From positions 248,001-312,000 of the forward strand of contig NZ_VFJB01000004.1 of assembly GCF_008362905.1 (NCBI RefSeq): 64,000 nucleotides of DNA, given 5' to 3'. The translations under genes were made by a program, and so were the position numbers. This DNA comes from Deferribacter autotrophicus. GTDB taxonomy: Bacteria; Chrysiogenota; Deferribacteres; Deferribacterales; Deferribacteraceae. This document shows positions 41,192-59,982 of the stretch, piece after piece. Positions within the stretch are counted from its first letter, which is position 1, and every line of letters begins with the position of its first letter. Below the pieces are notes generated by a model. The model did no database searches. It was not told where the DNA came from and saw nothing but the letters and a program-made list of their open reading frames with translations.

Positions 41192-41704
41192 TCACTTAAA
41201 CCTTATTCTATTTTTTATCTCTTCAAAAAGAGCTTTATATTCTTTCACGTCATTTTCATCAGCCAAAAAGAAAAACTTTAGTACCAGCCCCCTTGTAAAA
41301 AGCAATATAAGTTTTGAATACACCCTCACCCCTTCAACATCAACTGCATATTCGATCTCTTTTGCATAAATGTTATCAACAATTGTATTTGTCTCTTTCA
41401 TTTTAACAAAGGATGGATATTTCTTTTTTACTCCTTTGATTGCATTAAACAGATAAAACTCAACATTAGTGTTATTGCCAACATATTCTTCATTCACTAC
41501 CACCCTTTCTCTAAATTGATCTCCATCATTAGCCGGTGCATATGCGATCATTGTTGCACCTTTATCTTTTTCAACTAAAACCCAACCTATAGGAAATGTT
41601 ATTTCATAACCACCATCATTAGGTTTATAGGTCAACGTTCCCGCAAAAATGTTTTGCACTATAAAAATGATCAAAGATGTTAAAAAAAATATCTCTCTTC
41701 CCAT
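41192..41704 (-). CDS. Secreted PsbP/DcrB-like protein
   Basis: A 170-residue protein with a signal peptide (MGREIFFLTSLIIFIVQNIFAG). The mature part has the compact beta-rich pattern of PsbP-like and DUF1795 proteins: GYEITFPIGWVLVEKDKGATMIAYAP near its start and KALFEEIKNRIRF at the end. The cell function is unknown. It is a lone gene, convergent with nothing, and stands between the arsR promoter and rpsB. Confidence 0.7.
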   Translation of the reverse strand: MGREIFFLTSLIIFIVQNIFAGTLTYKPNDGGYEITFPIGWVLVEKDKGATMIAYAPANDGDQFRERVVVNEEYVGNNTNVEFYLFNAIKGVKKKYPSFVKMKETNTIVDNIYAKEIEYAVDVEGVRVYSKLILLFTRGLVLKFFFLADENDVKEYKALFEEIKNRIRFK

Positions 41705-41751
41705 AGACTGCCTCCAATCCCTTTATTATAACATATTTTTCAAACTTTTTA

Positions 41752-41856
41752 TTGATTTATCGAAAACTATATGTTAATAGATTTTCCCCAATACACACGC
41801 CCACTTTTCAAGACACTAGGCACGTGTCAGCTATTGCTGATGCCTATGTCTTGGGC
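41752..41856 (+). promoter_or_regulatory. rpsB promoter and structured leader
   Basis: TTGATT (41752-41757) and TAATAG (41775-41780) are 17 bp apart. The leader then folds into a long hairpin: GCCCA/TGGGC (41799-41803/41852-41856), AAGACA/TGTCTT (41810-41815/41847-41852, sharing one base with the first), TAGGCA/TGCCTA (41817-41822/41841-41846) and TCAGC/GCTGA (41827-41831/41836-41840). There is no T tract, so it is not a terminator. An S2-binding autoregulatory site is a plausible role. Confidence 0.6.
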
Positions 41857-41882
41857 GGAGGAAAAACAAATAAGGAGGAAAC

Positions 41883-42701
41883 ATGTCGTACATCTCAATC
41901 AAAAACCTTTTAGAAGCCGGTGTGCATTTTGGCCATCAAACAAAAAGATGGAACCCAAAGATGGAAAAATATGTCTTTGGGAAGAAAAACGGTATCTATA
42001 TTATCGACCTTCAAAAAACTGTACAATGCTTTAACCAGGCCTATGAATTCGTTAGAGATATGGTAAAAAACGGTTCTACAGTTCTTTTTGTAGGAACAAA
42101 AAAGCAGGCTCAAGAAGCTATTAAAGAAGCAGCTGAAAAGTGCCAAAGCTTTTATGTAAACAACAGATGGCTTGGCGGTACCTTAACTAACTTCCAAACC
42201 ATTAAAACAAGAATCCAAAGACTTAAAGAATTGGAAGAAATGTTCAACTCAGGGTACATAAAAAATTATTCTAAAAAAGAAGCTGCTAGATTGAAAAAAG
42301 AATATGAAAAGCTTAAAAAGAACCTTTATGGTATCAAAGACATGGAAGATATCCCTGATATACTTTTTATCATTGATATAAAAAGAGAAATGAATGCTGT
42401 ATTAGAAGCAAAAAAACTTGGACTTCCAATTGTAGCAATTGTTGATACAAACTGTGATCCTGACTTAGTTGATTTCCCAATTCCAGGAAATGATGATGCT
42501 ATAAGAGCTTGTCAGCTTATTGCTGGCAAAATTGCTGATGCAGTTCTTGAAGGAAAACAACTCAGAGAAGAAGAACTGCTTGAAGAAATTAGAGCAGCTA
42601 GTGAACAAAAAGAAGAAGATGAAGATATCCCTGTTGATGAAATAGTAGAAAGTGAAGAAACAACCGAAGAAGAAAAAGAAGAAGTTAAGGAGGAAAAATA
42701 A
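41883..42701 (+). CDS. rpsB: 30S ribosomal protein S2
   Basis: A 272-residue S2: [43 protein letters not shown] at the start, [19 protein letters not shown] and [30 protein letters not shown] further on. The last 45 residues form a strongly acidic tail (EEEL...[15 protein letters not shown]), longer than in E. coli. AAGGAGGAA precedes the ATG. The stop TAA shares its last base with the tsf ATG, so EF-Ts is translationally coupled, as is common. Confidence 0.97.
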
Positions 42702-43357
42702 TGGCACAAATTACCGCAGCAATGGTTAAAGAGCTTAGAGAAAAAACTGGCGCAGGGATGATGGACTGCAAAAAAGCTTTACAGGAAACAAATGGTGATA
42801 TTGAAAAAGCTGTAGAATTTTTAAGAAAAAAAGGGCTTGCTGATGCTGCTAAAAAATCCGGTAGAATTGCAGCAGAAGGGCTTGTAGTTTCATATATTCA
42901 TGGTGGTGGTAAAATCGGAGTATTGGTTGAAGTAAACTGTGAAACAGACTTTGTTGCAAGAACCGATGAATTTAAAGAATTATGCCACGATATTGCTATG
43001 CATATCTGTGCATCAAATCCTCTTTATGTATCAAAAGATGAAGTTCCACAAGAAGTTATTGAAAAAGAAAAAGAAATTTATGTAGCTAAAGCAAAAGAAC
43101 AGGGCAAACCTGATCATATAATTGAAAAAATAGTAGAAGGACAGATTAAAAAATACTTAGAAAGTATATGTCTCCTTGATCAGCCTTTTGTAAAAAATCC
43201 AGATGTAACCATTTCTCAGTATATTGCTGAAAAAATCGCTAAAATTGGTGAAAACATAAAAGTTAGAAGATTTGTTAGATACCAGCTTGGTGAGGGTATC
43301 GAAAAAAAGCAGGAAAACTTTGTGGAAGAAGTGATGAAACAGGTGAGGGGGGCTTAA
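42701..43357 (+). CDS. tsf: Elongation factor Ts
   Basis: Guanine nucleotide exchange factor for EF-Tu, 218 residues. The UBA-like N-terminus [40 protein letters not shown] contains the TDFV-adjacent core ([16 protein letters not shown]). It is shorter than the E. coli form of about 280 residues but near the compact Thermus type, with one exchange subdomain. It is followed by a clear terminator. Confidence 0.97.
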
Positions 43358-59638: not shown

Positions 59639-59711
59639 AGCGGGTGACGGGACTCGAACCCGCGACCTCAACCTTGGCAAGGTCACGCTCTACCAACTGA
59701 GCTACACCCGC
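59639..59711 (-). tRNA. tRNA-Gly (GCC)
   Basis: Read on the minus strand the acceptor stem GCGGGTG/CACCCGC is intact. The D arm is GCTCAGTTGGTAGAGC, the anticodon loop TTGCCAA gives GCC, and the T arm is present with TTCGAGTC. The discriminator is U, as usual for tRNA-Gly. CCA is not encoded. Confidence 0.95.
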
Positions 59712-59727
59712 TTAATTCGCACCCTTA

Positions 59728-59809
59728 TGCGAGTGGAGGGACTCGAACCCCCACGCCGGGTGGCACTAGATCCTAAGTCTAGCGCGTCTACCAGTTCCGC
59801 CACACTCGC
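59728..59809 (-). tRNA. tRNA-Leu (UAG)
   Basis: Acceptor stem GCGAGTG/CACTCGC with discriminator A. The anticodon arm CTAGA-CTTAGGA-TCTAG gives UAG. A long variable arm is present, as expected for a class II tRNA-Leu. It is 82 nt; CCA is not encoded. Confidence 0.95.
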
Positions 59810-59824
59810 AAAAAAAATAATAAG

Positions 59825-59898
59825 GGTGAGTGACGGGACTTGAACCCGCGACCGCTGGGGCCACAACCCAGTGCTCTACCAACTGAGCTACACCCACC
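59825..59898 (-). tRNA. tRNA-His (GUG)
   Basis: The acceptor stem is 8 bp (GGTGGGTG with CACTCACC), including the extra G at -1 paired with C73 that marks tRNA-His. The anticodon loop TTGTGGC gives GTG. Confidence 0.95.
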
Positions 59899-59908
59899 AC
59901 AAAAAAAA

Positions 59909-59982
<74 letters not shown>

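Follow-up and report, generated by a model that had tools for sequence, protein, structure and literature searches.

The rpsB leader of Deferribacter autotrophicus as a putative uS2-binding member of the rpsB motif, with a pseudoknot that shows no covariation in its order

Background

Upstream of rpsB, the gene for ribosomal protein uS2, the genome of Deferribacter autotrophicus carries a long structured leader, and the question raised by this locus is whether such an RNA is one more member of a leader family known from other bacteria or arose on its own. The leader lies within a stretch of 64,000 nucleotides of contig NZ_VFJB01000004.1, here called the window, whose numbering is used throughout. 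A first-pass annotation of this DNA described four stacked stems, from GCCCA/TGGGC to TCAGC/GCTGA, ending 26 nt before the rpsB start and followed by no T tract. With reference to the leader through which S2 controls its own operon in gammaproteobacteria, it judged the hairpin to be different in sequence and possibly an independent solution, a proposal which a lack of conservation of the hairpin in relatives would have refuted.

In the available text of Meyer et al. 2009 (PMC2704228), the rpsB motif is reported from most Alpha- and Gammaproteobacteria, a few other Proteobacteria, Cyanobacteria and some Firmicutes, and a pseudoknot between its junction and its 3' extension is described as present in all taxa of the motif. 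The E. coli rpsB leader is the operator of uS2; according to the part of PMC10931766 available, bS1 is required for its function as operator, and the ribosome-binding site lies outside it. No rpsB leader from the phylum of the window appeared among the titles and abstracts surveyed, a scope from which no absence from print is claimed, and the available text of PMC7247131 mentions rpsB only once (Table 1), with no S2 leader retrieved by word search.

Results

Fold and features of the leader

The leader folds with a minimum free energy (MFE) of -30.7 kcal/mol, compared with -18.6 +/- 3.4 for shuffled sequences (n=200); the z-score of the hairpin (41798-41857) is -3.57, and equally good folds were found in 2 of 200 shuffles. 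The basal stem pairs GCCCA 41799-41803 with TGGGC 41852-41856 and gains an extra pair, C41798-G41857. Above it, the MFE fold contains AGACA 41811-41815 with TGTCT 41847-41851, then TAGGCA 41817-41822 with TGCCTA 41841-41846, and finally a top stem, TCAGC 41827-41831 with GCTGA 41836-41840, which encloses the loop TATT. The four stems described at first sight are therefore recovered by the fold, with minor corrections concerning the bulges: one of 7 nt (41804-41810) between the two lower stems, the single C41816, and 4 nt below the top stem. The distance to the ATG at 41883 is indeed 26 nt when counted from 41856, and 25 nt from 41857. The Shine-Dalgarno sequence AGGAGG is single-stranded in the predicted fold and lies outside the stack, and a second GGAGG with an A-rich stretch is found 3' of the stack. 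The features of the locus, read in the frame shared by the leader family (stems A, B and C), are the following:

41790-41797, plus strand: 5' flank AATACACA, running into the first pair at C41798 (motif counts in relatives)
41798-41803, plus strand: stem A, 5' arm, CGCCCA (fold; covariation)
41804-41810, plus strand: asymmetric internal loop of 7 nt, on the 5' side only (fold)
41811-41821, plus strand: stem B, 5' arm, AGACA, bulged C41816 and TAGGC (fold; covariation)
41822-41825, plus strand: junction ACGU (family frame NNGU), corresponding to the 5' strand of the family pseudoknot (leader comparison)
41826-41841, plus strand: stem C hairpin, with wobble G41826-U41841 in the family frame, TCAGC/GCTGA and loop TATT (leader comparison)
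41842-41851, plus strand: stem B, 3' arm (fold; covariation)
41852-41857, plus strand: stem A, 3' arm, TGGGCG (fold; covariation)
41857-41871, plus strand: 3' extension GGAGGAAAAACAAAT, whose AAC(C) is the pseudoknot strand in other bacteria (leader comparison)
41873-41878, plus strand: Shine-Dalgarno sequence AGGAGG (sequence; unpaired in the fold)
41883-42701, plus strand: rpsB, ribosomal protein uS2, 272 aa (Pfam PF00318 Ribosomal_S2, E 4.1e-102)
42701-43357, plus strand: tsf, elongation factor Ts (Pfam PF00889 EF_TS, E 1.1e-45)

The rpsB stop and the tsf start overlap by one base (TAATG). An acidic tail of 29 residues ends the uS2 of the window (42612-42698), and the matches of many relatives outside the phylum stop near residue 226. 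Elsewhere in the window, four tRNA genes are clustered at 59639-59982 on the minus strand. A scan of 41650-41900 for sigma-70-like promoters returned no match.

A stable hairpin in this position could also be a transcription terminator or attenuator acting before rpsB, and a terminator scan did return one terminator-like match, at 41824-41843. Against such a role, this match has the tail CTATGTCTTG, both the sequence and the scan confirm that the hairpin is followed by no T tract, and the 37 aligned leaders of the phylum have an A-rich 3' extension following stem A; this explanation is considered extremely improbable. A conserved leader peptide was considered as well. An open frame of 87 aa crosses the leader, and some frame is open through the hairpin in 38 of 44 leaders; the frame starts and stops at differing places across the 44, so a conserved peptide is not supported.

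Conservation and covariation within the phylum

In the phylum sample, rpsB was located in 45 of 50 genomes (leaders are cited below by L numbers, families and genera by f and g numbers). The structure of the rpsB leader is conserved and stems A, B and C all covary; the A-B-C stack is kept in relatives, and the first-pass proposal is not refuted on this point. Among 30 leaders folded singly, without alignment, and judged by eye, the stack was found in 21, including six from f7 or g8 that the covariance model R1 described below does not detect. The exceptions were L087, with stems B and C and the base shifted, L121-L123, with A and C only, and five leaders which fold differently (L090, L118, L119, L120 and L125). 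L119 and L120, from two genomes of family f9 in the same class, keep GACGGAGGTTTAACAAAT before rpsB while the stack is not evident in their folds, and their leader may be rearranged.

RNAalifold applied to plain MAFFT alignments returned no pairs for 37 leaders of the phylum and seven pairs, of stem A only, for 48 leaders from outside it. This near-failure was read as a consequence of arms lying out of register, and sequence-anchored counts and a model-fitted alignment were consequently used. The anchored counts, based on 36 of the 40 leaders of the window's order (L102, L103, L106 and L111 were dropped) and including some mis-anchored stems (A in L090, L097, L098 and L100; B and C in L105, L112 and L113), gave 107/120 paired cells for stem A, 129/156 for stem B and 81/85 for stem C, compared with maxima of 96, 105 and 73, respectively, in 2000 shuffles; the anchors force pair 1 of stem A and pair 1 (G-U) of stem C and restrict pairs 2 and 3 of the latter, whose unconstrained pairs 4 and 5 are paired in 16/17 and 14/17. 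A separate phylum-wide count for stem A, covering 43 of 45 leaders (all except L120 and L123) with 27 distinct arm pairs and placing the g14 leaders (L102, L103, L105, L106, L111-L113) two bases off, gave 156/189 paired cells against a maximum of 143 in 2000 shuffles. The model-fitted alignment comprises 21 leaders and has 93.5% of its cells paired, compared with 68.3% after shuffling and 34-56% when slid, with the proviso that the rows were hand-picked from the order's best R1-scoring loci, L090 being omitted, and that such an alignment leans towards its own structure.

The junction was delimited with a parser that could read 44 of 45 phylum leaders and, with E. coli counted, 65 of 81 others, and its length is four nucleotides in 24 of 36 distinct phylum leaders, a value which the parser mildly favours. 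A G-U pair closes the apical stem right after GU in 29 of the 36 and in 38 of 64 others, including E. coli; the GU itself is not evidence, since the parser demands it. Two local peculiarities were recorded: leaders of g5 (L089, L091, L093) and g8 (L101, L114-L117) carry an extra short inverted repeat between the 3' extension and the Shine-Dalgarno sequence, which the window is without, and those of genus g8 have GCAAG in place of the usual GGAGG.

Relationship with leaders of other bacteria

R1 was built from 20 of the 80 rpsB leaders collected outside the phylum of the window, all of them from Bacillota according to their record titles. Its best match in the window is 41790-41879 (E 3.6e-6; next 2.9). 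In the 2.5-Mb genome, for which 150 of 963 first-look candidates were scored, no match other than the leader was significant (E 1.4e-4; next 1.93). The E. coli t44/rpsB leader is likewise recognised by R1 (E 0.0043), as are 46 of 60 additional loci from outside the phylum at E <= 0.1. Within the phylum, at E <= 1, R1 matches 24 of the 44 other loci and misses 20, including all of family f7 and genus g8. When R1 was run with stricter filters on the 50 whole genomes, 24 had a match at E <= 1: 21 with E < 0.05, all directly before rpsB, and three (E 0.66-0.86) elsewhere.

The flanks of the leader were compared with those of 80 rpsB loci from outside the phylum. The 5' flank CRCAC[GA] stands at the expected distance in 57/80 outside leaders and in 25/45 of the phylum, the window included, and the looser NCAC in 73/80 and 44/45; in E. 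coli this flank is AACACACACG. Its invariance in the alignments is partly due to selection, because rows were cut at that pattern. On the 3' side, GGAGG occupies the expected place in 54/80 outside leaders and 28/45 phylum leaders, the other 17 of the phylum having GGAAG or GCAAG, and the two flanks CRCAC[GA] and GGAGG occur together in 48/80 and 25/45.

The Rfam model of the E. coli leader, t44 (RF00127), gave no match in the window at the gathering threshold and none at E <= 10 over 41650-42000, with a control score of 83.5 bits on the E. coli leader. None of six rpsB loci from outside the Enterobacteria reached the threshold either, although one of them, from Geobacteraceae, had a sub-threshold match in the same place (24.1 bits, E 0.46). 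This indicates that Rfam t44 captures the rpsB motif only in part.

The first-pass suggestion of a different sequence and an independent solution can be weighed on these data. That a convergent leader controls rpsB, unrelated to the gammaproteobacterial one, would agree with the silence of t44 even at E 10, with stem sequences unlike those of E. coli and with a pseudoknot which, as reported below, is unsupported in the window's order. However, a model made of Bacillota leaders alone finds this leader uniquely in the genome and matches the E. coli leader too, the flanks are similar (5' CACACG, 3' GGAGG...AAC), the order of the stems and the G-U after GU are the same, and the Geobacteraceae match provides a weak bridge to t44. 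Convergence is thus regarded as very unlikely, and the suggestion is not supported; it derived from a comparison with the gammaproteobacterial form alone. The gammaproteobacterial leader and the window leader are members of the same broad motif.

Pseudoknot between junction and 3' extension

The pseudoknot potential of the window leader amounts to GU:AC, i.e. 2 bp. An anchored test was run on 40 leaders of the window's order (29 distinct) and on 66 of 81 others (63 distinct), with some junctions or extensions misassigned (L101-L103, L105, L106, L111-L113; L123): in the order, the mean was 2.48 bp with a leader's own partner and 2.48 with swapped partners, with at least three pairs in 12/29 distinct leaders, whereas outside the phylum the mean was 3.73 consecutive pairs against 2.83 for swapped partners (maximum 3.22 of 1000), with at least three pairs in 55/63 distinct anchored leaders (E. 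coli included). Without the junction anchor, the order scored 4.30 with own and 4.57 with swapped partners, and the outside leaders 4.73 and 4.36 (maximum 4.70 of 200). When another partner of the extension was sought by longest complement, own sequences had no advantage over swapped ones in the window's order. These comparisons support the loss of the pseudoknot in this order, or its reduction to two pairs, a conclusion drawn from 29 related leaders with some of the junctions misassigned.

The extension reads AACAAA in 33 of the 40 leaders of the order, and the junction is variable. It can tentatively be proposed, with rather less than even confidence, that the uS2 leader of this order works without the pseudoknot that is conserved between E. 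coli and Bacillota, with a drifting junction and a nearly frozen extension. Were this true, the pseudoknot would be dispensable for uS2 control and AACAAA would be held for another reason, e.g. A-minor contacts with the stack or a contact with uS2/bS1.

In family f10 of the same phylum, the pairing CCGU:ACGG is possible in 3/3 leaders, of which the anchored test credits L121 only. Retention of the pseudoknot in this family is suggested and goes no further, since the pairing never varies and four-base complements are several in these leaders (2, 6 and 4 in all).

As a separate observation, the 3' strand of the pseudoknot overlaps the Shine-Dalgarno sequence in 15 of 35 leaders with at least four pairs (L006, L011, L016, L017, L018, L022, L025, L029, L031, L038, L048, L057, L064, L075 and L121), e.g. 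CCUGU with the ACAGG of ACAGGAGG. In those 15, the pseudoknot itself could therefore mask the ribosome-binding site; no such overlap is present in E. coli or in several Bacilli.

Discussion

Identity and proposed mechanism

The window leader is, very probably, a putative uS2-binding regulatory leader of rpsB-tsf and a homologous member of the rpsB motif, known as t44 in Enterobacteria. A conserved, covarying leader before rpsB is most simply explained by S2 autoregulation, which is plausible; of the original interpretation, this part is strengthened by covariation, and the independent origin is not supported in the light of the R1 matches.

A conserved structure could nonetheless have a different function: it might stabilise the mRNA, give the 30S subunit a landing site or bind some ligand in place of uS2. 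The Shine-Dalgarno sequence left free, together with the second GGAGG and the A-rich stretch, could serve ribosome loading. Against this, all 21 phylum matches with E < 0.05 adjoin rpsB, and the E. coli leader is a known uS2 operator (PMC10931766, available part); such alternative roles are judged unlikely.

For the uS2-binding leader, we infer by analogy with E. coli that uS2 would be the ligand and bS1 its helper, with translational repression extended to tsf by coupling. The rpsB mRNA would fold into stems A, B and C, with the four-nucleotide junction under C, and uS2 in excess of 30S subunits would bind the folded leader, probably together with bS1. Bound to the stack and junction, uS2 would halt initiation on rpsB without covering the Shine-Dalgarno sequence, and the output of tsf would be lowered along with that of rpsB through coupling, given that the two genes overlap. 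As the Shine-Dalgarno sequence lies outside the stack, the block would not be simple sequestration, in agreement with what the available part of PMC10931766 reports for E. coli.

The picture of rpsB regulation is unchanged by these results, which add to the range of an already described ribosomal-protein leader a phylum that the available text of PMC2704228 does not name. The leader family itself is already known; the new part is the pseudoknot without covariation in the window's order, and a natural variant with a reduced pseudoknot is a way to ask whether uS2 control needs this element.

Comparison with known systems

The rpsB motif, as depicted in the available text of PMC2704228, shares with the window leader its position before rpsB, a long paired lower part, a short junction, an apical stem and a 3' extension. 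It differs in its P2, which is absent in the window, in its pseudoknot, which is unsupported in the window's order, and in its range, the taxon of the window not being among those named there; its long P1 would correspond to stems A and B, a mapping derived from the text.

The E. coli rpsB-tsf leader (t44, RF00127) has the same architecture, the 5' CACACACG, the 3' GGAGG...AAC and the G-U at the base of the apical stem, and both leaders are matched by R1. In contrast to the window leader, it can form a 5-bp pseudoknot (GGGGU/ACCCC), and its Rfam model has no match in the window. The rpsB leaders L002-L081, from Bacillota and other bacteria, are alike in flanks and stems for the larger part, and differ in the frequency of a pseudoknot of at least three pairs (55/63 distinct leaders, vs 12/29 in the window's order).

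The window leader adjoins rpsB, has a junction between a long basal stem and an apical stem that both covary, and is matched by a model from outside its phylum, while the pseudoknot reported for all taxa of the motif is not supported in its order; for this last reason, it is filed as a variant of the rpsB motif rather than as a standard member.
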